Positions 15,950 to 34,690 of a DNA stretch of 64,000 nt are shown here, piece by piece. The position numbers were made by a program, and so were the translations under genes. Source of the stretch: a virus; IMG/VR virus record IMGVR_UViG_3300023202_000137, positions 1 through 64,000 of that record; one strand, 5' to 3'. A model generated the notes under the pieces. It did not search any database, was not told the origin of the DNA, and saw only the letters and a program-made list of their open reading frames with translations. Numbering within the stretch: position 1 is the stretch's first letter; each line of letters starts with the position of its first letter.

Positions 15950-16873
15950 TCAGCTAGCAGCGGCGGCGGCGGCTGCTGCTGCTGCTGCCCCTTCCTCTGC
16001 TGCGCTGTTTTGTTTGTTGCCCTTGCCCTTTTTGCTCTCCGATTTCTTTGCGGGCTCTTGTCCCGGTTCAGCGTTGAGCTTTTCGTCAGGCGCTTCCACT
16101 TCCTCCTCCGGTTTGTGCCGATGTCCGGTCTCGGTAGCCCCTATCGCTTTGAGCTTCTTTAACTCTTCATCGCTGCATGCGCCGAGAGTACCGGCTCCAT
16201 ACATCTTGCGAAGCCAAAGCGGCACGTTGGGAACTTCAACCCGCTCTAGGTCTGCATCACCTTTAGTCAAGAAACCATCGACACCCTCGAATAGAGTCAA
16301 GTGTACGATCTCTCCGTCAGGGTTCTGTTTCTTGAACTGGTACCCAACGATATTGAAGAAGCCAGCAATGTCGTTGGGTAACTTTTTGCCTTGGAGTGAG
16401 GGACGCACGAACCGCTCGTCATTGGAGAATGACTCCTCGCTTCGGCACAAAACGAGCACGTGCATCGGAAGGTCTCGAAAGCTCCGAGTGATGTTCGCGG
16501 TACGGTCGATGACCACGCCCCATTCTCCCATCGTAAGACTTTCCCGTTTTGCTTGGTCGAGAATGTCTTTCTTTAGGATCTGCTGCATTTCGGTCAACGA
16601 ATCGAGCACGACCCCATCGTACGGGCAGTCTCCGCGCTGGTGCTGCATCTTGAGCATTGACAATGCGCCACGTAGATCGTCGGTGCTCTCAATGAATTCG
16701 ATCTCTGCATCCGGGTTGCGTCTGCGGATTGTCCGCACCGCTTGCCGTTCGCAGAGAAGTATCAGCGGGCGATAGAACGTAGCGCCCAGCTCGCTCTTTC
16801 CCGCCCCACTGTTCCCATGCGTCAGTATTTTCGCATGGTCAGCGGTATCCAAGTCACTGGCCTTTGTCGCCAT
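15950..16873 (-). CDS. Sak4-type RecA-fold ATPase (ssDNA annealing/recombination)
   Basis: A protein of 307 residues. Walker A HGNSGAGKSELG (20-27 core) and Walker B DGVVLDSLTE (86-95) in a single RecA-fold domain, length and order as in phage Sak4/AAA_24 proteins. Established: Sak4 works with a phage SSB in single-strand annealing, and here the SSB gene is immediately downstream. The C-terminal 60 residues are acidic then Lys rich and end in a poly-Ala run. Confidence 0.8.
   Translation of the reverse strand: MATKASDLDTADHAKILTHGNSGAGKSELGATFYRPLILLCERQAVRTIRRRNPDAEIEFIESTDDLRGALSMLKMQHQRGDCPYDGVVLDSLTEMQQILKKDILDQAKRESLTMGEWGVVIDRTANITRSFRDLPMHVLVLCRSEESFSNDERFVRPSLQGKKLPNDIAGFFNIVGYQFKKQNPDGEIVHLTLFEGVDGFLTKGDADLERVEVPNVPLWLRKMYGAGTLGACSDEELKKLKAIGATETGHRHKPEEEVEAPDEKLNAEPGQEPAKKSESKKGKGNKQNSAAEEGAAAAAAAAAAAS
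15957..15993. repeat. GCN microsatellite encoding poly-Ala
   Basis: Tandem GCGGCGGCGGCGGCTGCTGCTGCTGC-type triplets at the 3' end of the recombinase gene give 11-12 alanines before the final Ser. Triplet slippage would stay in frame. Confidence 0.6.
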
Positions 16874-16919: not shown

Positions 16920-18074
16920 TTAGGCTGCGTCGATTTCTTCGGCTTTCAGCTCTGGGTGTTCGGTGTCGCGTACGATGAAGTTGCGACGCGCGATTGGATC
17001 GTCTTCGAGACAGATTCGGCGGTACGGGCACTTTCGCCCATTGACAGAGCAGGCACTCACGTTGCGGTAGAAGGCCTCACACGTGTCGATGTCGCGAGTG
17101 ATTTGGTATGTCTCGCGTTCCCAATCCTCGATGTCCTGCAGCGATACAGGATGCCAGAACCGCCAGAAGAATCGGTCTCCTCTAGAGGTCAGCATCGAGA
17201 TCACATCTTCATAGTCCTTGTCGTTGATGTCTAGATGCGGGTAGCTGCGAATTGCTGCGACGTACTTCTCAACTGTCGTGTCGGTGCTTTGCTTCGTGGA
17301 GATCCCCACCACACCAGTTGCGTTGCAGGTCGGGCAACTCGTGTGGCCTTCCTTCTGTGCTTTCTTTGTGGGCTGGCCACTCCCTTTGCATGACTTGCAC
17401 TTGAGCGGGTGTGGGTCGGCGGGGAGTTTCTTGCGTAGTACGTTGTAGATGATTCCTCGCAACGGTGGCCAACCCATTTCCTGGATCAACTTCTCTGCCC
17501 CCCACACGTAACCGATGGGTTGGGTGTCGAGCATCAGTGTGGTTTCGTATTTGTCCTTGTCCGTCTCCTGGGTCGTCTTGTTCTCTAAGATCCAGGACCC
17601 GTCTTGGTCCGCAAAGAGTAGATCGATCTTCCCCCCGAAGTCCCATGTTGCAGAACTGCGCCCGCGCGTACCGCTCTTGAATGTGGAGATCGGATAGCGA
17701 AACGGTTTCTCGCATGCGAGGATGCGCCAGGTGTTCAGATCGTTGGCGTACCGTTGCACGTACCCCTGCATCATCCCGGTTGCGAGTTTGCGCAGGTCTG
17801 CGATCTTGTCGTGGTCAACGTCTGCGTATTCGTTGCTCCCTGCAGCCGCATCCACTTCTGCGTGGTGCTTTATCTCCCACGCATTCATGACGTGATCGAA
17901 AAGCACGTTTTTGTTTATGTGGAAGTCTTCAAGGCAGTCGTGCACGAGCTGCCCGAAACTCAGGGGAGGGGCTGTCACTATGGGGGACAGTCTCTCGGGA
18001 TAGACAAAGAAATATTTACGCCTGCACTGCGTAAAGGTTCGCCGCATTGAATTGGTCAGGAGCCGTCTGGTCAC
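16920..18074 (-). CDS. PD-(D/E)XK exonuclease of the Cas4/RecB type with Fe-S cysteines
   Basis: A protein of 384 residues from GTG 18074 (GTGA overlap). Nuclease core: H45 in SFGQLVHDCLED, D151 in GGKIDLLF, E164-x-K166 in WILENKTTQ, and Q185 in DTQPIGY. Four cysteines fit an Fe-S cluster: C17 (FTQCRRKYFF) with C342, C349 and C355 (CSVNGRKCPYRRIC), the AddB/Cas4 arrangement. An extra zinc module, CKSCKGSG and CPTCNATG (226-250), is inserted between. Likely 5'-3' end resection partner for the Sak4/SSB pair. Confidence 0.85.
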   Translation of the reverse strand: MTRRLLTNSMRRTFTQCRRKYFFVYPERLSPIVTAPPLSFGQLVHDCLEDFHINKNVLFDHVMNAWEIKHHAEVDAAAGSNEYADVDHDKIADLRKLATGMMQGYVQRYANDLNTWRILACEKPFRYPISTFKSGTRGRSSATWDFGGKIDLLFADQDGSWILENKTTQETDKDKYETTLMLDTQPIGYVWGAEKLIQEMGWPPLRGIIYNVLRKKLPADPHPLKCKSCKGSGQPTKKAQKEGHTSCPTCNATGVVGISTKQSTDTTVEKYVAAIRSYPHLDINDKDYEDVISMLTSRGDRFFWRFWHPVSLQDIEDWERETYQITRDIDTCEAFYRNVSACSVNGRKCPYRRICLEDDPIARRNFIVRDTEHPELKAEEIDAA

Positions 18075-19393: not shown

Positions 19394-20929
19394 TCAAATC
19401 TCAAAGACAACATCGGTTGCAGAGTTGGGGCCGCTCACGTCATCGATCTGCATTACCTTGTCGCAGAAATTATCGAGCGCAGTCTCCCCACCCCAGCCAC
19501 CGATCTCGATGCCGTAGGTTCTAACTTCCTTCTGTGCGCACCGCCTGCGGAAGTCTTCCGCAAAGGATGTGCCTGCAGCACCGTCCGTGATCAGCACGAT
19601 GTCTGCTTTTGTGAACTGGTCCTCCTCCACAATCGTCAGTGCCTCTTTCAGCACTGGTTCAAAGTTGGTGCCTCCCCCACTGAAATATTCCATCAGCTCG
19701 CATACATGCTCCCAACTGGGTGGGTTGGGTCCACGCTCCCATACGAGTTTGCATCCTACCTCGGTGCAGAAGTGAAGGACGGCAAAGCTACGGTTTTCCT
19801 TGCGTGCGATGTCCAGCATCGCCAGGGCCACCGCTTTGCTCCACACTTCCCGGTCACCAGCCATTGAGCCGCTGTTGTCGATGCACACGACGATGGGCCC
19901 GCGGCCTTGGGGGGCTTGTCCCTTTAGCTCGTAATTGAGCAGCGACCGCTCCATGAGCCCCTGAAAGAACAGAGCCTCGAAGTCTGGATCGGATAGCTTC
20001 AGAGTTTCCACGGGGAGCAACCGTGCGAGGTCATCACCGTGGGTAATGTCTGAGATCTCATCACGCCGGTAGTCTGCTTTGCTTCGTTGCTGCGCTGCAG
20101 CTACTCGGCGCATTCGTCCCGCCAGCTCTGCAAGGGCCTTGAGCTTTTCTGACCTACCAACCCTCTCCATCAACTTTCGCTTCTGCTCAAGGTCCCCGCC
20201 ACGGCCAGCCGACCCAGACTCGTTGCCCCATCCGAAAGCGTCGAGCGTAGCCTGGGCCTGGTCGATGTCCGTGTTCGCCTTCTGAATCCCCTGGCGCATG
20301 GCGTGACGCATGGCCGAGGGGTCCATCTGTTGCTGGAAGTTCTGTGCAGTCTGTTGCATCTGTTGCATGCGCTTCCTGGCTTCTGCTTGCTCTGCCTCGC
20401 ACGGGACTCCAGCGGCCTGTAGTTGTTCATAGCCCTGCAGCAACCGCTCGACGCTTTGGCTGTCCCGGATCTGCTCCGACGGTTCCGGCAATGCCTGCAG
20501 AACTGACTCAGCAAGCGCAGTGCTGGACACACCGGACCATAGGCGGTCACCACGGCAACGGTCCTGCAGTCGCTTGAATTCGGGCAGCTCCTCGACTACC
20601 TCATGGGCTTGCTCTGCCCACCCGCTGGTGGGTCGAACATCCTCCGCTGGGAGTCGCTGCGCGTTCTCGGCATAGAGCCTGGTGAACACTTCTCGCATGT
20701 ACGCAGGCCAGCGCTCCATGCCCTTAGAGCCTTGGTCAGCCATCAGCGCAGCTTCTTCGCTGCCCTGCGCAAACTCAGAGTATTGGTACCGGTGCCACTT
20801 GTTCGTCTGGTACACGAGGTCAGAATCGACGCGCCGTTGCGAAGCGGTGGAGGGGCTGACTGCAGCAATAAGCCCATGCCCCGCCTGCTCTTTGGCGGCC
20901 TTGGTCGGGTCCCATAGTTTCCGTGCCAT
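19394..20929 (-). CDS. VWA-domain protein (ViaA/CoxE-like partner of the MoxR ATPase)
   Basis: A protein of 511 residues. The N-terminal 330 are helical and charged, with a Gln-rich stretch (RMQQMQQTAQNFQQQM). The C-terminal third is a von Willebrand A domain with an intact MIDAS: DNSGS (351-355), T421 in GGGTNFEP and D449 in LITDG. Established: MoxR/RavA ATPases act with MIDAS VWA partners as metal- or complex-loading chaperones. The ATPase gene ends one base before this gene starts. Target unknown. Confidence 0.85.
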   Translation of the reverse strand: MARKLWDPTKAAKEQAGHGLIAAVSPSTASQRRVDSDLVYQTNKWHRYQYSEFAQGSEEAALMADQGSKGMERWPAYMREVFTRLYAENAQRLPAEDVRPTSGWAEQAHEVVEELPEFKRLQDRCRGDRLWSGVSSTALAESVLQALPEPSEQIRDSQSVERLLQGYEQLQAAGVPCEAEQAEARKRMQQMQQTAQNFQQQMDPSAMRHAMRQGIQKANTDIDQAQATLDAFGWGNESGSAGRGGDLEQKRKLMERVGRSEKLKALAELAGRMRRVAAAQQRSKADYRRDEISDITHGDDLARLLPVETLKLSDPDFEALFFQGLMERSLLNYELKGQAPQGRGPIVVCIDNSGSMAGDREVWSKAVALAMLDIARKENRSFAVLHFCTEVGCKLVWERGPNPPSWEHVCELMEYFSGGGTNFEPVLKEALTIVEEDQFTKADIVLITDGAAGTSFAEDFRRRCAQKEVRTYGIEIGGWGGETALDNFCDKVMQIDDVSGPNSATDVVFEI

Positions 20930-20930
20930 G

Positions 20931-22109
20931 TTAGATCCTCACCCCTGCCAGCTTGGCTGCCTGGCGCTGTACCTCTTGGTGCATCTTGGCAACCTCGTCT
21001 GCAGCTTCCTTGAGTTTCCGCGCCTTGTTTGGATTGGACTGGATCGAATTCTGCAGCTCTGATTCCATGCGCTCGAATTCAGCGTTGGTCTCTGCCATCG
21101 CTGCAAGGCACTCAGCCTTGGGACGTGCGTCTGGGCCATCAGTCTGGGGCAGTTCCCGGAACAGCTCTTTTGCTGCGTCGAGAACCTCGCTTGCCTTGGC
21201 TGCCATTGGGTTAGCGACCTTCCCAACTTCCTGCACCAGCGTTGCCCGCTCTTTGGGTTCGCGCCAGAGAACGTCGGGCAAGATATCGAAATGATCCTCG
21301 CCCACTTCAGTGTCCCCGCATACGTAGGCAAACGCCTTGAGAACCTTGACTACCTTTTTCCAGCGACGGTCCGAGGCACGCACACCAGCTCGCTCCGTTG
21401 CAACCTTCACATCCAAGAGAACGTCCATTGCCCCCGGCTCCAGCTTCACTTGCTTGGCTTCTTTCTGCATGGCTTCGAGATCTGCGAGGGCTATGCTCGT
21501 TGCGATGGTGGGGTCTTTGCTCGTGAGCATCGCTTTCAAGTTGTCTCGATCTGAAATGGAATCGACCCAGTAGCGAAAGACGAAGCGATCAAAGAGGGCC
21601 TCCAGCTCCTCTGACTCGGGCAGCTCGTTGGAGGCGCCGAACATCGAGAGCAAGGGAACGTTGATCACTTGGTCGTTGTCGAATACGCGCTCATTCGCTA
21701 CGCGCAAAAGAGAGTTGAGTACCATCGTGTTGGCCTTCCAGATCTCATCGAGAAAAGCGATGTGCGCTTCGGGCAACTTGCGGTCGATCTTCCGCTCGAA
21801 GCAATCGTTCTTGAGCGCCGACACCTTGAAGGGCCCGAACAATTCTTCGGGTACGGACCCCTTGCCGAGCAAGCGCTCAAAGTAATTGGCTCCCTGGATC
21901 GCATTGCAGAGAACGCGAGCCAGGGAAGACTTGGCTGTGCCCGGGGGGCCCAGCAACAGGATGTGCTCGCCCGCGATGAGCGCAGCCAAGGCACCGTCAA
22001 TGATGTGGTTGCGCTCGTAGAACACTTGGCGCAGCTCGTTGCGCAAAGTGCCGAGGGTTTGCTGGTGGGTGGAGGGTACTGCTTGGATGTTGGTTTGTGC
22101 TTGTGACAT
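20931..22109 (-). CDS. MoxR/RavA-type AAA+ ATPase
   Basis: A protein of 392 residues. Walker A GPPGTAKSS (54-62), MoxR-type insert ERLLGKGSVPEELFGPFKVS, Walker B HIAFLDEIWKAN (116-127), sensor region FGASNELPESEELEALFDRF, and a C-terminal helical tail. Typical RavA/MoxR length for the AAA+ part. Together with the VWA gene it forms a two-gene chaperone unit; its position beside amidoligase and GGCT genes suggests the target may be the modified product. Confidence 0.87.
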   Translation of the reverse strand: MSQAQTNIQAVPSTHQQTLGTLRNELRQVFYERNHIIDGALAALIAGEHILLLGPPGTAKSSLARVLCNAIQGANYFERLLGKGSVPEELFGPFKVSALKNDCFERKIDRKLPEAHIAFLDEIWKANTMVLNSLLRVANERVFDNDQVINVPLLSMFGASNELPESEELEALFDRFVFRYWVDSISDRDNLKAMLTSKDPTIATSIALADLEAMQKEAKQVKLEPGAMDVLLDVKVATERAGVRASDRRWKKVVKVLKAFAYVCGDTEVGEDHFDILPDVLWREPKERATLVQEVGKVANPMAAKASEVLDAAKELFRELPQTDGPDARPKAECLAAMAETNAEFERMESELQNSIQSNPNKARKLKEAADEVAKMHQEVQRQAAKLAGVRI

Positions 22110-22121
22110 TTGTCTGGTCTC

Positions 22122-23015
22122 CTACTTTTTGTTTTTGGCTTTGGCTTCCTTCGCTTTGGTCTTGACGCCGAGCATCTTGCTGACCTTGCGCTGTAGCCGT
22201 TGGATGGTTTTGTCGAGGTCGTCGTGTGCAACCTCTAGCATTCCTTCATAGAGCGCAGCACGGCTGCGCAGGGACTCGAAGGTTTCGAGCCGACGTTCGA
22301 GGGTGTCAATCCTGCTGGTCTCGTCGAAGTCTTCGATCTCCCTCTTGAGGGCTGCAAGCTCGTCAGCCATCGTAGATCGGAATGCACCGGTCAACGTGTC
22401 GCGAGTATCTGCGGTGTCGTGGACTGGGAGCAGCCAGACTTCAGATCCCCCCAACCTGTTCACGAGGTCGCGCATCGAGCGGAGCAACTGCGCGTGGTTC
22501 CCAGGCACGAACCACTCGGTACCGATGGGGATCCCCTCGTTGTCCTTGCAGATGCGCTTCATGGTGGAGCGGATTTGATCCGTGGTCACCGACCCTCGAA
22601 GCTCCAGAAACTTGGAATCCACCCGCTTGCAGACGGGGTGAGCCCGGTTCTCATAGAGCCGCTTGCCTGTTTTTCGATGCAGGGTCATGCGCGAGGTCGT
22701 CGCGTATTCTAGATCGTTGTTGGTAGTGTCGGCAGTCTCCGCGACCACGGCCCAGGTTATGTGCTCTGCATCCTTGGCGACGGGTCGAATCAAGTAGCCT
22801 TCCTCATGCACGAGTCGCATGGCGCGAGTCCAGGCGGCATCGTCGTCCATGCCCTTGGGTACGAGATCTTCCGGGAACCCAACCTCCCCCGCGATATGCA
22901 GCACGCGCTCGCGGGGGCTGGTGGCTTCCCAGAGCCGGTAGAAAACTAGGTCTCCCAGGTGAACCCCTGCAGTCTGCAGGCTGTCCACAATCTGGGCTGC
23001 TGAGTGTCTGGTCAT
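22122..23015 (-). CDS. DUF6744-like protein with C-terminal coiled coil
   Basis: A protein of 297 residues. N-terminal globular part (LGDLVFYRLWEATSPRERVL, KRVDSKFLELRGSVTTDQIR) and a C-terminal coiled coil (ALKREIEDFDETSRIDTLER) ending in a Lys/Ala tail. I recall a family (DUF6744) with this layout near phage MoxR/VWA pairs, but this is from memory. First gene of the MoxR unit and its likely adaptor. Confidence 0.62.
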   Translation of the reverse strand: MTRHSAAQIVDSLQTAGVHLGDLVFYRLWEATSPRERVLHIAGEVGFPEDLVPKGMDDDAAWTRAMRLVHEEGYLIRPVAKDAEHITWAVVAETADTTNNDLEYATTSRMTLHRKTGKRLYENRAHPVCKRVDSKFLELRGSVTTDQIRSTMKRICKDNEGIPIGTEWFVPGNHAQLLRSMRDLVNRLGGSEVWLLPVHDTADTRDTLTGAFRSTMADELAALKREIEDFDETSRIDTLERRLETFESLRSRAALYEGMLEVAHDDLDKTIQRLQRKVSKMLGVKTKAKEAKAKNKK

Positions 23016-23060
23016 GTTTCAATCCGTTTCTGTTTTCAAAGAGTTGATAAAGAACTGTCC

Positions 23061-23094
23061 TGACTCTTGTCTCATGATTCCTTTACGAGAGTCA
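23061..23094. promoter_or_regulatory. Inverted repeat and promoter-like site before the MoxR unit
   Basis: TGACTCT (23061-23067) and AGAGTCA (23088-23094) form an inverted repeat with a 20-base spacer. TTGACT on the minus strand (23090-23095) could be a -35 box, though no good -10 follows at 16-18 bases. Could be an operator. Confidence 0.35.
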
Positions 23095-23106
23095 AGCGCA
23101 TTGTTG

Positions 23107-23649
23107 CTAATCGTCTAGGTGGTCCATTGCCCATGCGCAGTCGTCCCAGGATGGGTGGTAGAGTGGCGGAAACTCGCGCTTGGTCACTCGGGTACCCGGG
23201 GGCTCTGGCAGCGGCTTACCGAGGCGCTCAGCGCGTCTCCATAGGGGGTTTGATGTGTATCGAGCACGCCAAACTTGCAGATGCTCGAAGCGCCAGACCC
23301 CATCCGTCACGCGCTCCAGTCCATCGAAACCGCGCGACCACTGATAGCCCCAGGCCACTGCGCCAGATCTCAAGGTGATCAGCTCCCGACAGTAGACTTG
23401 GGGGTGACCCTCCCGACGGTCGAGAGCTACCAGGCCCTCCAGGTCCACATAGAGAAGCTCGCCAGCAACGAGCCCCTTTCCCTGGAAGTCCACGGCGGCC
23501 TGTCCTGTCTCCCGAAGATAGAGCGAGCCACGGGCCCAGTGCCGTCTCCGTCCTTCCTTCAGTGAGCCGTAGGCAAACACTCGGAACCGGCCCCGGTAGG
23601 CAGCACGGCGTAGGTTGGCTTTTGTCTGGGGCAATAGTTGTTTGGGCAT
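23107..23649 (-). CDS. Gamma-glutamylcyclotransferase-like protein (GGCT/AIG2 fold)
   Basis: A protein of 180 residues; ATG 23649 after GAAAGGACCACGAC. VFAYGSLKEG (24-33) is the GGCT substrate-loop motif, E80 in DRREGHPQVY fits the catalytic Glu, and AVAWGYQWSRGF matches the C-terminal strand. Established: GGCT-fold enzymes cyclise gamma-glutamyl amines to 5-oxoproline, and AIG2-like members pair with amidoligases. It lies directly downstream of an amidoligase gene. About 40 extra C-terminal residues have no assigned role. Confidence 0.78.
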   Translation of the reverse strand: MPKQLLPQTKANLRRAAYRGRFRVFAYGSLKEGRRRHWARGSLYLRETGQAAVDFQGKGLVAGELLYVDLEGLVALDRREGHPQVYCRELITLRSGAVAWGYQWSRGFDGLERVTDGVWRFEHLQVWRARYTSNPLWRRAERLGKPLPEPPGTRVTKREFPPLYHPSWDDCAWAMDHLDD

Positions 23650-23669
23650 GTCGTGGTCCTTTCAACGCA

Positions 23670-23741
23670 CCGTGCCCACCTGGTTAGTGGGCACGGGTCA
23701 AGATCGAATGCGGGGGATGGGGAGACCAATCCCCACCCCCC
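23670..23741 (-). other. Two strong hairpins between amidoligase and GGCT genes
   Basis: Hairpin 1: CCGTGCCCAC (23670-23679) with GTGGGCACGG (23687-23696), perfect 10 bp. Hairpin 2: 23712-23723 with 23730-23741, one mismatch. Neither is followed by a T run on the minus strand. They may set relative expression by mRNA stability. Confidence 0.55.
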
Positions 23742-23754
23742 TAGATGGACCGCC

Positions 23755-24684
23755 TTACGCGGCGCTTTGCTTGTCGAATTTGGTGCAGAGGCGACGAAGC
23801 TCTTTGCGGTACTCTGCGACTTGCTCAAGATCGATAATCCCGAAGGCATCGCACTCAGGCTTGCCGGAATCCTTGCGGCCTAGCTTCCAACCCATGAGGC
23901 AGAAGAAGCGATTGATTGCCTTGCGAGCCTCGCCAGTGGTCTTGGTTTCGTATGCTTTGGTATCGGTGCGGTCCCAGGTAGCCTTGCGACCGAGAGCCCG
24001 CTCGCACATCGCGAGGCACATCGAAACCCAAGCAACCATCTTGAGGCCTTCGGTGGTACCGGAGAAGGCGCGGAACTCAACCGTATTGAGGCGGGTTCCG
24101 TTCACGTTCTGGAGATTCAGAAGGTGATAGCGCCCGCCATTGTTGATTGTTCCACCGCGAACGTGGCTGGCTTGCCCCTTGCGCACGCGCTCAGCCGCTT
24201 GCTTGTTCTGCTCGTTTCGGATGCTCTGGCACCACCGACCGTTCACTCGCTGAGCGGAACCAGCGGCGCCCCGGATGGCTTGCTCGAACTGAGCGACCAC
24301 GTTGGTCAGGTTGCCCACCCACTTTTGCTGGGCATTGGGCATCCGACCGGCTACAGACTCAACCCCGACGTGGACGTGGGTCCCGCAAGATCGGTTGGTC
24401 TTGAATCCGTTGGCGTTCATCCACTCAGCTACCTGCAACACCTGACGAAGGCCCTCAGCTCCCTTGAGGATAGGGGAGACAATTTCCATGGGCTGGTACC
24501 CGCTCAGGCTGGTGGAGAGCGAGCAATCAGTGTGTGCGTTCCACCCTTGGGGGAGGCCAGGAATCTGAGCGCCCGAGCGGTACCCGCCAATTCGAATCAG
24601 GCCACGGGGCATGAGGGTCTCAATCTCAATTCCGAAGGTGAAGTTGTGAGCTTGCTTGCTTGCGATTTGAACTTGCTTTGCCAT
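23755..24684 (-). CDS. Amidoligase (COOH-NH2 ligase of the glutamine-synthetase fold)
   Basis: A protein of 309 residues from ATG 24684, after AAAAGGACCAAGACC; the frame is open far upstream but that part crosses the promoter region. Family features: NFTFGIEIETLMP (E20, E22), HTDCSLS (D53), MEIVSPILKG (E67) and CGTHVHVGVE (100-109). Established: amidoligases join carboxyl and amino groups using ATP and are often coded beside GGCT proteins in phages and bacteria. Substrate unknown; candidates are a host protein, a cell-wall peptide or a virion protein. Confidence 0.85.
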   Translation of the reverse strand: MAKQVQIASKQAHNFTFGIEIETLMPRGLIRIGGYRSGAQIPGLPQGWNAHTDCSLSTSLSGYQPMEIVSPILKGAEGLRQVLQVAEWMNANGFKTNRSCGTHVHVGVESVAGRMPNAQQKWVGNLTNVVAQFEQAIRGAAGSAQRVNGRWCQSIRNEQNKQAAERVRKGQASHVRGGTINNGGRYHLLNLQNVNGTRLNTVEFRAFSGTTEGLKMVAWVSMCLAMCERALGRKATWDRTDTKAYETKTTGEARKAINRFFCLMGWKLGRKDSGKPECDAFGIIDLEQVAEYRKELRRLCTKFDKQSAA

Positions 24685-24734
24685 GGTCTTGGTCCTTTTC
24701 TTTGGGGGCTTTGTTGCCCCGTCCATCTGTAAAT

Positions 24735-24763
24735 AGAGTACGCGAATACCCGCATAGGGTCTA
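24735..24763 (-). promoter_or_regulatory. Weak promoter candidate for the amidoligase operon
   Basis: TAGACC (24758-24763) and TACTCT (24735-24740) on the minus strand are 17 bases apart. Match to sigma70 consensus is poor; a promoter in this 275-bp divergent region is expected from the layout. Confidence 0.25.
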
Positions 24764-24782
24764 CGACTTTTTTCGCTTTCGT

Positions 24783-24836
24783 GCACTTTTTTGTAAGTGC
24801 CTGTTTTTGCTAGGGAAATAGTGGCGAAATCCACTA
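24783..24836. promoter_or_regulatory. Two inverted repeats in the divergent promoter region
   Basis: GCACTT-N6-AAGTGC (24783-24800) and TAGTGG-N6-CCACTA (24819-24836). Both have 6-bp arms and 6-base spacers, with 36 bases between starts. They lie between the amidoligase operon and the plus-strand island and could be operators for the regulators coded next door. The gap 24685-24959 holds no gene I can support. Confidence 0.45.
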
Positions 24837-24861
24837 ATTTTAGGCGATCCAACCCCTCCCC

Positions 24862-24890
24862 TTGTCTATGTGGCTTCCCGCATATATATA
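24862..24890 (+). promoter_or_regulatory. Sigma70-like promoter of the plus-strand island
   Basis: TTGTCT (24862-24867), 17-base spacer, TATATA (24885-24890). It points into the GGCT, receiver and Fis-HTH genes. Confidence 0.6.
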
Positions 24891-24898
24891 GGAAGCAT

Positions 24899-24928
24899 GG
24901 CCCCAGGGGCCGGGGGGTGGTCCCCCGG
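24899..24928 (+). other. GC-rich leader hairpins
   Basis: GGCCC/GGGCC (24899-24911) and CCGGGGG/CCCCCGG (24910-24928) share two bases, so the stems compete. They occupy the 5' leader of the plus-strand transcript, about 30 bases before the first start. Confidence 0.45.
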
Positions 24929-24959
24929 AGATAGCCAGGGGCTTGGAAGGGACCAGACA

Positions 24960-25400
24960 ATGCGTTGCGTAGATTGTGGCGAGAGCTTGAGGGCAAAACG
25001 GGGGGTGGACCCCCACGACCATGGGTGGGGGCAGCGGTCCGACGATTGCTGGCAGTGCCCTGAGTGTTTCCATTCAGTGGACGGGCAACACCTGGTTTTC
25101 GTCTATGGTATTTTGAAGACAGCCGAGGTTGCCAACGATCCCCCACACTCTGCCGAGGGGCGGATGTACTGCAGTGGGATCGCGCTCGTTCGTTTTGACG
25201 AGCCCGGTTTGGTTCGTGGGCAGGTCCGCGCAGTGGACTCGGACACCCTCGCGAAATGGGATGGCATCGAAGGGATCTCCCACGGCCTCTACCAGCGCGT
25301 GCGCATTACGACGCGCGAGGGCGTGGACTGTTGGGCCTACCAGTTCAACCGGTCGGTCCAAGGCTGCCAAGTGATCAAGTCAGGCGTGTGGACGCGCTAG
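24960..25400 (+). CDS. Zinc ribbon fused to a second GGCT-like domain
   Basis: A protein of 146 residues, ATG 24960. The N-terminal 40 hold C3xxC6 and C30xxC33xxC36 (MRCVDCGES; CWQCPECFHS), a zinc ribbon. A GGCT core follows: HLVFVYGILKTAE (44-56), WDGIEGISHGLYQRV with E104 as candidate catalytic Glu, and VDCWAYQFNRSV. The substrate loop reads YGIL rather than the usual YGSL. Divergent from the amidoligase operon and from the first GGCT, so two GGCTs of separate type flank one amidoligase. Confidence 0.75.
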   Translation: MRCVDCGESLRAKRGVDPHDHGWGQRSDDCWQCPECFHSVDGQHLVFVYGILKTAEVANDPPHSAEGRMYCSGIALVRFDEPGLVRGQVRAVDSDTLAKWDGIEGISHGLYQRVRITTREGVDCWAYQFNRSVQGCQVIKSGVWTR

Positions 25401-25435: not shown

Positions 25436-25792
25436 ATGAGCGCAAAAACTCGCGTTCTCTTTGTAGATGACGACTCGATGATGCTCCGCGCAGTCGTTCG
25501 GATATTCAGAAACCAGGAGCGATGGGAACTCATCACAGCTCAAGACGCTGAAAGCGCGCGACCACATCTCGCCTCGGTGGATGTGGTAGTAACTGATTGG
25601 GATCCTTCGGGCGCGGCGATGGTCGCCCTCTGCAGGAAGCACGGTCTACCGGTGGGGGTGGTGTCTGGCCGCGCGGTCGGGCAAGATGACTCGGAAGCCG
25701 GGGAACGTGAGCGCCGTCAGCTCGACGGTGCTCCGTTCATCAGCAAGCCTTTCCAGCGTTCTGAAATGGTCGAGTTTCTGGAGTCGTTATGA
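25436..25792 (+). CDS. CheY-like response-regulator receiver protein
   Basis: A protein of 118 residues, ATG 25436 with AAGGAG seven bases upstream; the longer open frame is read-through of the GGCT gene. All receiver residues are present: D11/D12 in VLFVDDDS, phospho-acceptor D54 in VVTDWDPSG, S77 in GVVSGRA and K104 in FISKPFQ. No output domain. Its stop overlaps the Fis-HTH start (ATGA). Established: receivers are phosphorylated by histidine kinases; no kinase is seen here, so a host kinase or acetyl phosphate would be the donor. Confidence 0.87.
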   Translation: MSAKTRVLFVDDDSMMLRAVVRIFRNQERWELITAQDAESARPHLASVDVVVTDWDPSGAAMVALCRKHGLPVGVVSGRAVGQDDSEAGERERRQLDGAPFISKPFQRSEMVEFLESL

Positions 25793-26169
25793 CGCTACAG
25801 GAACAGGTCGAGGCTTTCGAGAAAAGCCTGATCGAACGGACGTTGACCATGACGGACGGCAACGTTCGCGCATCAGCAAAGGCCCTGGGCACGGCAGAAC
25901 GAACACTGTGGGACAAGCTCGGGAAGCACGAGATCGACCCCAAGGTCTTCCGGCCCGGGGCCAACCCCGATGCCGCAGGTATCAAACGGGTTGCCCTCTA
26001 CGTGAGCACCATGATCGAGCACTTCAAGGAACTCAACCTCGACTCGGCCATGTGCGACCTAGACGATCTGAGTGACCGCCTCTACTACGGTGGGTGGAAA
26101 ACCGAGGACCCACGGACAGCCGCCGCCGTCTCGCGAGCCCTCATCACTGGGTCACTTGAGCATCTCTAA
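25789..26169 (+). CDS. Fis-type HTH protein, output half of a split response regulator
   Basis: A protein of 126 residues, ATGA-coupled to the receiver gene. Residues 10-48 (EKSLIERTLTMTDGNVRASA, then KALGTAERTLWDKLG) match the C-terminal Fis-like HTH of NtrC and RegA/ActR regulators. The remaining 75 residues (RVALYVSTMIEHFKELNLDS) are helical and unassigned. Receiver plus Fis HTH without AAA+ is the RegA/ActR layout, here as two proteins. Its stop overlaps that of the convergent gene by four bases. Confidence 0.78.
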   Translation: MTLQEQVEAFEKSLIERTLTMTDGNVRASAKALGTAERTLWDKLGKHEIDPKVFRPGANPDAAGIKRVALYVSTMIEHFKELNLDSAMCDLDDLSDRLYYGGWKTEDPRTAAAVSRALITGSLEHL

Positions 26170-29945: not shown

Positions 29946-32459
29946 TTACTTCTTCTTTTTGGCGGGCTTCGTTGTCGCGTCCTTCTCTACCTCTAGCGTC
30001 TCCTCTTCGATGAAAGTTTTGCCGGTCAGTTCTTCGAGTGCCCTGATAGCTCGCTCCATCCTGAACACCTTACGAAATCCTCGCACCTTGTTCTCGGTGT
30101 GGAGATAGTATTCGCCGGTCTTGGGATCGTGTGGAGAGATTTGGGTGACGGTACCACCCTGGTCTCGAACGAAGACTTCTGCGAGCCCGCCAACATCTTT
30201 GGCATAGACTTGGGCTTTGTTGACTAGGCCGGTTGGATCTCCAACTCGCTCCCCCAAGTAGATTGCGTGGTTGTCGCCGCCGATGTTTCCGACGTAAAAC
30301 CCATCGGTGTTGCTCCCTCCACCGTGCACCATCCTGAACCGTGTGTTGGAATCGAAACGAAATGTTAGCTCATCACCACTGGTTATCGATCCAATCGCCA
30401 CCTGGAGGGATGCTGCGAGGTCGGAGTTAAAGCGCAGAGCCCCTGTTCCCCCAAAAGACCCATCGAGTTGTAGTCTATTTGCAACACCACCCGCACGAAC
30501 GGCGAGTATGCCTTGGCTGGATCCAACATCAAGGCTCATGTACTCCGTGTTGCCGATCAACCAGTCCCAACTGTCTGCGCTTCGGTCGTACCGGATAAAG
30601 TCTCCAGAGTCGCCACGAAACTCTCCGTCAACTCCGTTCCAAAACAGACCAAAGTTCTGGATACCAACCTCTAGGCCATCTACGCTCGTAGGCCCAAACC
30701 CCACTGCGCCAACGACGAGACCCTCTCGAATATTCACGCCGCCATTCTGCAGAACGAAGTCGTTGGTGCTACCGCGCTCGAATCGAAACGAGTCGAAGGT
30801 TCGACTGTAGATAAGCGCGTCACCACTATCGAAGCGCAAAATCCGGTCGTCACCGCTAAGACTCAAGTTGAAGTTGGCGTCATCTACAACGAACGAGGTA
30901 TCGACAAAAACTGACTGGTACGGGTTGGCAAGGCTACCGATGTTCGAGTTGGATTGCAGAGGAATGATAGAGCCACGTTGACGGAACTCACTGACGAGTG
31001 GCTCGATTTCCAGAACTCGAATCGGAACCCCGCCTGAATACACATCGGCCTGCAGCTCACCTGTGTCATCTGCGCCAGCCCGAACCGCCGCAAGGGAGGC
31101 AATGACGTTGGTGACCACAGCGTCGTCTTCGATTGCGAAAGCAACCAAGGGGCCAAACCCGTCTGCCATGTTTCCACTGGAGAGGGCGCGGAAGTCCAGA
31201 GCTTGCTGTGTGCCCGTGGTGGAGGCAGTGTCGATCCGTATCGCGTCCGGGCTAGTGCTTCCCCTTCGTATCCGTTTGCTCATCTCGGTTACGAGAAAAT
31301 CGAGAGTGTTGGCCACGGTATCTGCAGGTGCCGTGAACACTGGCGGTACGAATGAGGGCGCCCCAGCTTGGCCGTCGTATCCGACTTGCGCAGACCCCAG
31401 GCCACCCGTTGTGGACTGCAGATCGTCGATCAATTCCTCGATAGCTGCTTGGACATTTCCCGAGCTAACGTAGTCGTGTGGGGTGAACGAAACACTCGCT
31501 GCTGTGAAGGGAGTCGTGCGAATGGTTTCTAGGTAGTCGAGCAGGGTTTCGATCTGTGCGTTGACAGTACCCTCGGCCAGGGTCAGTGGTGACCCAAGGG
31601 CAACGCCGCTACCACTCTTTGCGTTCGCCCCTACTTTCGTCGCGCCGTTGCTTGCACCGCCCGCAGTGGCTAGGTCTGTGATCACATCGTTGATGGCTGC
31701 ACGAAGGGTTGCGCTTGCATACCCAAGGGCAGTACCCCCGGTTGGGGTAAGCGTAAATCCTTCGATCCCGATGAGGGTGGCACCCTCACCAGCCGCCTGA
31801 CTTGCTAGCTCCCCTACGTAGGCGTTGTAGTCGGACAAGATGTCGTCGAGAACTTCCTTGGTCCTACCACGCACAACGTCGAGCCTCGTGTTACCCGTAC
31901 TGCGAAAGAAATCCTGACGGCGAGAAACATCCAGGTTGCCGTTCGTAATGGTGGATTGCCCAAATGCGCGAGTGATGTCTACGAGCAAGATCGCATCTGG
32001 TCGAAGTGGTGGCGCTGTGGGGGCAACGTCTTCTGCGCTTTGAACCACGAAGAGACTGAACGATGCATTGCGACGAAAGAAAACCGTCACGCTGTTACCG
32101 TCCGTCTCAGGCTGCTGCAGATCTTCTGCGAACTCTGCAAAAACCGAGATTATTCGGCTGTTTCCGGGCGTGAGGACTTCGGTAGATGCCCCGAGGTTGT
32201 CTTGGCTAACGTCAACGATCTGCGGGTCTGGCCAGGAAACCTGCTTGCCTTCGGGGGTAAATAGAAGCGCATCGCCACTCACGTCAACAGTGAGAGCTGG
32301 TGGCCCCGACTCTGTAACCTCGCCATTTTTGACGATTCCGCTGAAACCTTTCTGCTCGTCACCAATTGCAGACTCGATACGATCCTGCACCTGGTCGAAC
32401 GCCAGATCCATATCGCCTTCGGTCACTAGCTGGCGGAAGAAAAAGTCCAGTCTATCCAT
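29946..32459 (-). CDS. Large tail-fibre-like protein
   Basis: A protein of 837 residues. N-terminal attachment-like part (MDRLDFFFRQLVTEGDMDLA), a middle of beta-rich segments (TDGNSVTVFFRRNASFSLFV) and two helical stretches, then repeated strands, and a C-terminus with GEYYLHTENKVRGFRKVFRM and a charged helix. Layout and place right after the gpI-like gene fit a tail fibre. No chaperone gene is obvious. Confidence 0.65.
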   Translation of the reverse strand: MDRLDFFFRQLVTEGDMDLAFDQVQDRIESAIGDEQKGFSGIVKNGEVTESGPPALTVDVSGDALLFTPEGKQVSWPDPQIVDVSQDNLGASTEVLTPGNSRIISVFAEFAEDLQQPETDGNSVTVFFRRNASFSLFVVQSAEDVAPTAPPLRPDAILLVDITRAFGQSTITNGNLDVSRRQDFFRSTGNTRLDVVRGRTKEVLDDILSDYNAYVGELASQAAGEGATLIGIEGFTLTPTGGTALGYASATLRAAINDVITDLATAGGASNGATKVGANAKSGSGVALGSPLTLAEGTVNAQIETLLDYLETIRTTPFTAASVSFTPHDYVSSGNVQAAIEELIDDLQSTTGGLGSAQVGYDGQAGAPSFVPPVFTAPADTVANTLDFLVTEMSKRIRRGSTSPDAIRIDTASTTGTQQALDFRALSSGNMADGFGPLVAFAIEDDAVVTNVIASLAAVRAGADDTGELQADVYSGGVPIRVLEIEPLVSEFRQRGSIIPLQSNSNIGSLANPYQSVFVDTSFVVDDANFNLSLSGDDRILRFDSGDALIYSRTFDSFRFERGSTNDFVLQNGGVNIREGLVVGAVGFGPTSVDGLEVGIQNFGLFWNGVDGEFRGDSGDFIRYDRSADSWDWLIGNTEYMSLDVGSSQGILAVRAGGVANRLQLDGSFGGTGALRFNSDLAASLQVAIGSITSGDELTFRFDSNTRFRMVHGGGSNTDGFYVGNIGGDNHAIYLGERVGDPTGLVNKAQVYAKDVGGLAEVFVRDQGGTVTQISPHDPKTGEYYLHTENKVRGFRKVFRMERAIRALEELTGKTFIEEETLEVEKDATTKPAKKKK

Positions 32460-32461
32460 GG

Positions 32462-34690
32462 TTACGGCTCCACCGTATTGATGTGGTGCGTATGGGGCGG
32501 TTTCATGAAATCCACAATCTCTCGCAGTTGTCGTCGTTCCTCGTCACTGAGTGTCCTATCAACTTCAACGTCAAAACTGTAGAGGGAAGCCGAGTCGTCC
32601 AACCCCAAGAAGGTACCCTCTCCAAGCTCATCCTCCCCCAAAACCCAGCCGTCTAGGTCGTTGAACTCTACAATAAGGCATTGCGCGATACCTAGAAAGA
32701 ACTCCACGGCAGCACAGATCCCAGGGGCCGTACCCTTCAGCTTGTAGATATCCACGAGGATTCTTGCCAGCTTGCGCTTGTCGTTCTCGCTGAGATCGAA
32801 GGCGAAGGGGTTACCGAGCGATTCCAGAATCACGTCGAGGAACTGCTCGTCTGCTGTGTCGATGTCGAGAATATCAACCCATTCATCGATCTTGCAGAGA
32901 ATTAGATCGACCACGTCCTGCAGGACGTTCGAGAACCGCAGTAGATCGAGCGACTCATCTTCGCGACGGTTCAGCTCAGCAAACATTTTGTAGATGCAGA
33001 AGTTTCTCCGGTCCGGTGCTTGCGGTTGGAATGCGTCGAACACTGCCTGTGCTGGGCCTGCAGCATTCCCGAATAAGTCCTCAACATTGTTGATGATCAC
33101 ACGGTACTGCAGCTCATTTCCTTCACATGAAAGGTGCCGGCTCATCTCAACATCTAGGGTTACGTCGTACTCCGTGTCAGAAATCTTCTCGACCGACACT
33201 GCGTTGAGCGACACTGCTGGCGTGATGCTGTCGTGGATTGCCTCGAAAGTGTAGTTCGATGGCGTAAGCGCATCTGCTGCTGTGCCGTCTCCGGTCGCGC
33301 GTACCGCCTCGTCAAAAATGACTCGCACAGTTTTCTTGTCCAGTGCGATTGCTGAGGCTGCCTCTGGCGGTGTGAGGTCTTCGATGGTGAACGAGTACGA
33401 CTCTGCGAAGGGTGATCCCCCACCAACGAGGTCGCTAGTCACATCGACTTGGATAACATCGAGGCTCAGGAACACCGCAGGAGGAACGAGTAAGAAGCTC
33501 AACCCGTCCGGGCCTCCTGCACCTGGGGAGGTCAAATCAGTCACAACAACACCCCACCCGTTCTGTGGTGAGGCTCCGTCCCAAGCAAGTACGCCGTCAA
33601 CTGTTATGGTCGTTGCTGTTTGATCTGGCTGGCTTGCTCCGGTGTTCCAGATCTCCAAGTACACGTTGGAACTGATGGGTACTTGGGTTTCGTTGGGCTC
33701 CGGGTTCTGGCTGAGGATGACGATGCCCGTGTCCTCGTCACAGAAAACGTTGTCCAGGTAGATCGCAGGCAGCTCAACGTCGATGGCTGGGTTGATGCTG
33801 CTGACCACCGCAGAGGCAGTGCCGCCGCTTTGCCCAGGCACGATACCGCTCACAACGTTCTGAGCTGTTGGCTGCGCGCTGCTACCGCTCGTTGCTGCAG
33901 AAAGTCCCGAGGTCTCCCGCGTCACTTCCGGCACTGCGTTCGAGCCGGATTGAGCCTCCACAGTACCGCCGCTTTCAATGTCTCCCGTTGCTTCAGCTCG
34001 AAGAGTGATCAGGTGACTGATCCAATCGTCGAACGGAACCGTGTCCCCACCAAAGGTCAGACTTTCACTGACGCTTTGAGTGACGGTAAGGATTAGATCA
34101 TGGACAGTGATCTTGCCTTCGATTGTCCCGAAGCCGACTGGACCGTCTACGCGCTGGGTGAACGTCGCTGGGGTGTGGGTTTGGCCGCCGTCGTTTGAAC
34201 CGATAAAAGCTATCGCAACTTCATCAGCTTGCGATGTCACACCGGTTGCTCCGGTGGTTATTGGATCTCCGTCCCCTTCGTTGGTTACGAGTTGATCCTG
34301 TGCGGGTACCAGGATGTTGACGTATTCTAATGCAGCGATGTTGAAGTTGTATGCGCTGCTTTTTGGCGCGAGCACTTCAACGAAGCGGCTCGCATTGTTG
34401 TCTGGAACAATTCCCAGCCAAACCTCGTGCCGAATGAAAACATCGCCAGCACTTTGTGCGTTTGCAATTCGCGCGTAGCTGAATCCGGTCTTGGTCCCAC
34501 TCTCTGTGCTTTGGATGACACTGGTGATTGCTTCTGGATCGCCGTCGTTTGGATCTAGCGCCGTGGCCCCAACGACAATGATGGACCCAGGCAACGGGTC
34601 CTGTGGCAGCTCGAAGACGGGGGGGTTTAGAAATGCCCCCGCACCCCCAGCACGTATTACGTGCGATTGTCTGAAGACAGCGCCAGCCAT
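32462..34690 (-). CDS. Baseplate gpI-like protein with long beta-domain N-terminus
   Basis: A protein of 742 residues. The first 540 are beta-rich Ig/Fn3-like modules. The last 190 contain DEQFLDVILESLGNPFAFDL, LARILVDIYKLKGTAPGICA and VEFFLGI, the pattern of P2 gpI-type baseplate proteins, ending LREIVDFMKPPHTHHINTVE. Established: gpI links the J ring to fibres. The fusion of an adhesive-like region to gpI suggests it helps hold or extend the fibre network. Confidence 0.72.
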   Translation of the reverse strand: MAGAVFRQSHVIRAGGAGAFLNPPVFELPQDPLPGSIIVVGATALDPNDGDPEAITSVIQSTESGTKTGFSYARIANAQSAGDVFIRHEVWLGIVPDNNASRFVEVLAPKSSAYNFNIAALEYVNILVPAQDQLVTNEGDGDPITTGATGVTSQADEVAIAFIGSNDGGQTHTPATFTQRVDGPVGFGTIEGKITVHDLILTVTQSVSESLTFGGDTVPFDDWISHLITLRAEATGDIESGGTVEAQSGSNAVPEVTRETSGLSAATSGSSAQPTAQNVVSGIVPGQSGGTASAVVSSINPAIDVELPAIYLDNVFCDEDTGIVILSQNPEPNETQVPISSNVYLEIWNTGASQPDQTATTITVDGVLAWDGASPQNGWGVVVTDLTSPGAGGPDGLSFLLVPPAVFLSLDVIQVDVTSDLVGGGSPFAESYSFTIEDLTPPEAASAIALDKKTVRVIFDEAVRATGDGTAADALTPSNYTFEAIHDSITPAVSLNAVSVEKISDTEYDVTLDVEMSRHLSCEGNELQYRVIINNVEDLFGNAAGPAQAVFDAFQPQAPDRRNFCIYKMFAELNRREDESLDLLRFSNVLQDVVDLILCKIDEWVDILDIDTADEQFLDVILESLGNPFAFDLSENDKRKLARILVDIYKLKGTAPGICAAVEFFLGIAQCLIVEFNDLDGWVLGEDELGEGTFLGLDDSASLYSFDVEVDRTLSDEERRQLREIVDFMKPPHTHHINTVEP

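Follow-up and report, generated by a model that had tools for sequence, protein, structure and literature searches.

An amidoligase/GGCT pair and a DUF6744-MoxR-VWA trio in a virus record: probably two phage modules side by side

Introduction

Six neighbouring genes in a 64,000-base stretch of viral DNA (hereafter the window; positions 1 to 64,000 of the 90,757-base IMG/VR virus record IMGVR_UViG_3300023202_000137) encode an amidoligase, two gamma-glutamyl cyclotransferases (GGCT1 and GGCT2), a MoxR AAA+ ATPase, a VWA protein and a DUF6744 protein. Do these genes serve one pathway? A sequence-only reading had proposed that they do, with the amidoligase adding a glutamyl or peptide tag, the GGCTs trimming it, and the MoxR, VWA and DUF6744 proteins remodelling the tagged complex. 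The gene identities on which this proposal was built were borne out. Indeed, all six genes were confirmed, at or near the positions assigned to them, by Pfam matches above the curated cut-offs, open reading frames (ORFs) and alignments, and every catalytic motif was intact. The single pathway was not. We consider it likely that the stretch holds two independent, separately travelling phage modules placed side by side: module A, made up of the amidoligase, GGCT1 and probably GGCT2, and module B, a conserved and apparently undescribed trio of DUF6744, MoxR and VWA genes.

Results

Co-occurrence of the two modules in viral records

Co-occurrence was determined by searching the whole records of 50 MoxR-bearing viruses, most of which also carry VWA and DUF6744 genes, and of 38 amidoligase-bearing viruses. 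An amidoligase with a GGCT was found in only one of the 50 MoxR-bearing records (locus L042), and DUF6744 in none of the 38 amidoligase-bearing records; the same DUF6744 profile did detect Moorella phage MTATph1 and a Desulfobacterales genome. A conserved neighbourhood in other phages, on which the sequence-only reading had made its proposal depend, was essentially absent for the whole six-gene set and present for each half separately.

In the amidoligase tree, the window sequence grouped with those of loci L094 and L095 (support 100/98), whereas the L042 amidoligase belonged to a separate 31-member clade (100/99). A shared history of the two modules was rejected on the basis of this tree. As the amidoligases of the window and L042 come from different clades, the most economical interpretation is a separate acquisition of module A and at least two origins of the joint arrangement. 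L032, the closest relative found (MoxR 49-51% identical, eight genes in common), carries no module A gene at the matching position: its terminase gene ends 89 bases before MoxR, and the amidoligase, the GGCTs and DUF6744 are absent between them.

Several observations weigh against this separation. The genes of both modules are close and co-directional in the window, and the order in L042 (amidoligase, GGCT, GGCT, one ORF, DUF6744, MoxR, VWA) matches that of the window. Both points favour a single write/erase/remodel pathway, and modules A and B may be co-expressed and to some degree functionally coupled. Moreover, L032 is only 11 kb long and a DUF6744 gene may sit elsewhere. Many viral records are fragments as well, which makes single absences weak and the counts taken together stronger. 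Set against these counts, the two amidoligase clades and the arrangement in L032, one common tagging pathway appears very improbable.

The amidoligase and GGCT genes

The amidoligase contains the motifs GxExE, EIVSP, CGTHVH, RYH..N and EFR, and an alignment of 93 homologues showed that it keeps all 13 tested conserved residues and that 11 of these never vary. Its 463-aa ORF, with a GTG start far upstream, exceeds the gene; homology starts close to the ATG at 24684. The corresponding motifs are YGSL...EG...YCR (with DRREG) in GGCT1 and YGIL...EG...YQR in GGCT2. Both GGCTs retain the YG motif, the catalytic Glu and the Tyr after it, and this Glu was found in 64 of 67 homologues. The loss of catalytic residues that would have counted against the sequence-only reading was not seen. 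Judged by their sequences, the amidoligase and the GGCTs look active. The two GGCTs share 37% identity over 105 residues, and the GGCT tree does not resolve a recent duplication. In GGCT2, a CxxC...CxxC stretch resembling a zinc ribbon (24960-25079) precedes the GGCT domain.

The association of the amidoligase with a GGCT, also part of the sequence-only reading, proved to be recurrent. Of 80 viral amidoligase loci, 61 had a GGCT within the flanks and 12 had a class II glutamine amidotransferase there, and the amidoligase/GGCT pairing was also observed in Arthrobacter phage Kovu, Bacillus phage 031MP004, a Ruminococcus phage and phage C75C1. This is a recurring and already described phage pair: such genes in PSA-HP1 and other podoviruses have been described as a peptidoglycan modification cassette, thought to prevent superinfection (PMC5498523), and the amidoligase/GGCT/glutamine amidotransferase cassette is credited to Iyer et al. 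2009. The class II glutamine amidotransferase profile gave no match in the 64-kb window, the part of the 90,757-base record scanned with it. In L094, the nearest amidoligase relative, a class II amidotransferase adjoins the amidoligase. In phage C75C1, the annotated GGCT (L030:5573-6469) has a long N-terminal extension starting MCLII, which may be a class II glutamine amidotransferase fused to the GGCT.

As is usual in these families, the module A amidoligase would use ATP to form an amide or peptide bond on a carboxylate, with a host peptidoglycan peptide or a glutamyl metabolite as its most likely substrate, and the GGCT enzymes would split gamma-glutamyl amides to give 5-oxoproline. The families involved make an action on the cell wall moderately probable. 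Alternatively, the substrate of module A taken on its own might be a protein of the phage or the host instead of a cell-wall peptide, or its product a small metabolite; the enzyme class permits this, and the window showed no glutamine amidotransferase partner. We regard this second reading as tentative, given the published interpretation of the phage cassette as one for peptidoglycan modification (PMC5498523) and the class II amidotransferase gene in L094.

Conservation of the DUF6744-MoxR-VWA trio

A MoxR-based scan of viral contigs, with flanks of about 10 kb, yielded 62 loci. All three trio genes were present in 46 of these (about 41 of 51 without near-identical contigs), in a sample that leans toward such MoxR proteins, as three of the five MoxR seed sequences came from trio-bearing loci. 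DUF6744 was encoded on the same strand as MoxR-VWA in 47 of 48 loci, most commonly in the order DUF6744-MoxR-VWA (27 of 49) or MoxR-VWA-DUF6744 (18 of 49). It lay at most 200 bases from MoxR or VWA in 28 of 49 loci, with a median gap of 117 bases. DUF6744 is a frequent third partner of phage MoxR-VWA.

The trio was found in phages of unrelated hosts, among them MTATph1, which has no amidoligase, and in a contig from Desulfobacterales on which phage-like genes occur. In the MoxR tree, the DUF6744-bearing sequences were clustered and did not form a single clade. The literature searched contained no description of the trio and named DUF6744 nowhere. Single-protein scans of the viral contigs with VWA, amidoligase or DUF6744 queries gave no match, and neither did scans with alignments of two and of three DUF6744 rows or of two VWA rows; these patterns were too narrow. 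Two unannotated gut records labelled 'Bacteriophage sp.' (L004 and L006) carry a MoxR-VWA pair and no DUF6744 in the available sequence. The L004 MoxR groups with cellular RavA, and this record may be bacterial.

The MoxR and VWA proteins

MoxR carries a Walker A (GPPGTAKS), a Walker B (LDE), a sensor (SNE) and an SDRRW motif, and its arginines are retained. Among solved proteins, it was closest to RavA (structure 3nbx, 1.5e-55, residues 12-295). Against the NCBIfam RavA model it scored 213 bits, under the equivalog cut-off of 681, with a match stopping at residue 317, and the C-terminal domains of RavA are absent. The VWA protein has a complete metal ion-dependent adhesion site (MIDAS; DNSGS/T/D) and scored 114 bits against NCBIfam ViaA, under the equivalog cut-off of 500. 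Its AlphaFold2 model (predicted local distance difference test, pLDDT, 85.9) is helical in its N-terminal region and has a canonical VWA domain at the C-terminal end, which resembles many VWA folds (Z 16-18), such as the Rea1 MIDAS (Z 17.1) and the NorD VWA domain (Z 16.3). Pfam detected neither a fused effector domain nor a beta-propeller in this protein, and no N-terminal metallopeptidase domain was found.

Among named families, RavA and ViaA are the closest to the two window proteins, and three papers (PMC3893208, PMC10585395, PMC9489729) link RavA-ViaA with the inner membrane and with respiratory complexes. The trio might target a host complex, by mimicking RavA-ViaA at a membrane or respiratory target or by acting in counter-defence. 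We find this unlikely: the RavA C-terminal domains are lacking, both proteins score far below the equivalog cut-offs, no convincing PADLOC defence-system match was obtained, and the trio is spread over phages of unrelated hosts.

The DUF6744 protein

Pfam detected only DUF6744 in the third protein of the trio. Its AlphaFold2 model (mean pLDDT 93.5) showed an N-terminal alpha/beta domain followed by three long C-terminal helices, and a Foldseek search of this model against the PDB returned no E-value below 0.001. The helices of CorA and of ribosome recycling factor were rejected as kin, their Z scores of 7-10.5 being in the range usual for helical bundles. The nearest viral models were phage proteins of no assigned function and a protein of HVTV-1. 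In the L042 DUF6744 protein (L042:8821-9975), a SAP nucleic-acid-binding domain was detected at the end of the sequence (37.9 bits).

The DUF6744 protein of HVTV-1, a tailed virus of haloarchaea, is gp25 (L179:9815-10966), and its gene lies near a ribonucleotide reductase gene. The AAA/VWA pair of this virus, of the type interpreted as CobS/CobT (PMC8651126), lies 15 kb from the DUF6744 gene.

A chelatase-type motor of the CobS/CobT kind, raising cobalamin for nucleotide reduction, is how viral cobST pairs have been read (PMC8651126), and in both MTATph1 and HVTV-1 the DUF6744 gene has ribonucleotide reductase genes nearby. The HVTV-1 pair gave no match to RavA-like profiles, however, and no ribonucleotide reductase match was obtained in the window record, itself possibly incomplete. 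For the MoxR-VWA pair of the window, we think such a role most improbable.

Genomic context and proposed role of the trio

The context of the trio is mainly DNA metabolism, with terminase and other late genes nearby in a few loci. Families recurring near MoxR included DNA polymerase (10 loci), PD-(D/E)XK exonuclease (8 loci) and Sak4 (6 loci), the latter two counts including the window, as well as primase-helicase (5 loci), SSB and helicases. The same picture emerged when 122 neighbours were pooled and scanned against PHROG, with helicases, polymerases, reverse transcriptases, exonucleases, Sak4, primases and ligases.

Of the 25 neighbour families met most often, terminase, with two members, was the only one concerned with structure or packaging. 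This count bears on the possibility that the trio is a virion-assembly chaperone, comparable to the jumbo-phage MoxR-vWA pair, for which that function was proposed (PMC7824862), and to the ATPase and VWA proteins of Acidianus two-tailed virus (ATV), for which it is reported; the window proteins show distant similarity to the MoxR and VWA proteins of ATV. A terminase gene does lie nearby in the window and in L032, and L042 and L056 have, a few kb upstream of the trio, relatives of the window genes at 29946-34690. With DNA metabolism genes as the recurrent neighbours, we nevertheless hold virion assembly to be a rather unlikely function. Because of these neighbours, and of the SAP domain of one DUF6744 protein, a replication or recombination role is favoured over virion assembly.

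Module B would then be a dedicated three-part AAA+ remodelling machine, in which a RavA-like MoxR ring would hydrolyse ATP, the VWA protein would catch the target through its MIDAS site, and DUF6744, with its alpha/beta platform and long helical bundle, would serve as an adaptor or substrate-binding subunit. We infer that the three proteins form a complex. From the gene context and the MoxR-VWA mechanism summarised in PMC7159879, it is possible, though short of probable, that module B targets a replication or recombination complex of the phage. The fuller proposal, that the trio is a widespread, undescribed tailed-virus AAA+ remodeller of such complexes in which DUF6744 is the adaptor bound to DNA or substrate, is offered more tentatively still. 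Some points tell against it. A site beside replication genes is no proof of a replication role, as phage accessory genes are often found there, and a replication-gene location is noted for the amidoligase cassette as well (PMC5498523). Moreover, the SAP domain was detected in only 1 of the 42 DUF6744 proteins scanned.

Gene layout of the window

Five genes are encoded on the minus strand, in the transcription order amidoligase, GGCT1, DUF6744, MoxR and VWA, and GGCT2 is divergent on the plus strand (Table 1). The intergenic gaps are 1 base between VWA and MoxR, 12 bases between MoxR and DUF6744, 91 bases between DUF6744 and GGCT1, and 105 bases between GGCT1 and the amidoligase. The regulatory region around which the six genes had been said to lie amounts only to a divergent spacer of 275 bases; no sigma-70-like promoter was found in it. 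A megablast search of the region against phages gave no match. The two genes downstream of GGCT2 (25436-26169), encoding a receiver-like and a Fis-type helix-turn-helix protein, had no relatives among the approximately 170 loci fetched.

Table 1. Positions, strands and supporting matches of the six genes and nearby features of the window.
Feature	Positions	Strand	Match or description
VWA protein, 511 aa	19394-20929	-	VWA_2, 36.9 bits; helical N-terminal region and C-terminal VWA domain, MIDAS intact; ViaA-like
MoxR AAA+ ATPase, 392 aa	20931-22109	-	bpMoxR, 177 bits; RavA-like core
DUF6744 protein, 297 aa	22122-23015	-	PF20529, 79 bits; alpha/beta domain and C-terminal long-helix bundle
GGCT1, AIG2-type gamma-glutamyl cyclotransferase, 180 aa	23107-23649	-	PF06094 (GGACT), 41.8 bits
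Amidoligase_2 enzyme, 309 aa, ATG at 24684	23755-24684	-	PF12224, 80 bits (cut-off 22)
Divergent spacer between amidoligase and GGCT2, 275 bases	24685-24959	none	
GGCT2, 146 aa, ATG at 24960	24960-25400	+	PF06094 (GGACT), 41.5 bits; N-terminal zinc-ribbon-like stretch and GGCT domain
Response-regulator receiver-like protein, downstream of GGCT2	25436-25792	+	PF00072, 25.8 bits (below cut-off 30.2)
Fis-type helix-turn-helix protein, downstream of GGCT2	25789-26169	+	PF02954, 30 bits (above cut-off 22)
PD-(D/E)XK exonuclease (phrog_1218), recurrent trio neighbour	16920-18074	-	
Sak4-like AAA protein, recurrent trio neighbour	15950-16873	-	PF13479; clusters with phrog_124 neighbours

Discussion

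The six-gene stretch should probably not be read as a protein-tagging pathway, each half recurring alone. If the role proposed for the trio is correct, DUF6744, a domain of unknown function, would acquire a constant companion and a role open to testing, and phages of many environments would have in common a replication-linked AAA+ machine, of which we found no such description. The result may also matter for those viral pairs, MoxR/VWA or CobS/CobT-type, that are now read as virion-assembly or cobalamin genes.

Compared with the known phage amidoligase/GGCT cassette, the window likewise has an Amidoligase_2 enzyme whose catalytic residues are intact, next to a GGCT and near DNA metabolism genes; it differs in having no detected glutamine amidotransferase partner and in its second GGCT, which is divergent and bears the zinc-ribbon-like N-terminus. 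The resemblance of module B to RavA-ViaA of Escherichia coli lies in the adjacent MoxR and VWA genes, the MoxR core (about 37% identical) and the intact AAA+ and MIDAS motifs, whereas the window MoxR is without the RavA C-terminal domains, the scores are far under the equivalog cut-offs, and DUF6744 is present as a third partner. A MoxR-VWA core with a conserved third protein is also found in the MoxR-vWA ternary systems (VMAP, iSTAND, FtsH, beta-propeller; PMC7159879). However, the third protein here is DUF6744, Pfam detects no effector domain fused to VWA, and the genes are viral and located among replication genes. Finally, module B shares with the jumbo-phage MoxR-vWA pair (PMC7824862) and the ATV MoxR/VWA proteins the presence of a virus-encoded MoxR-VWA pair, but no N-terminal metallopeptidase domain was found on the window VWA protein, and its context is mainly one of replication rather than virion structure.

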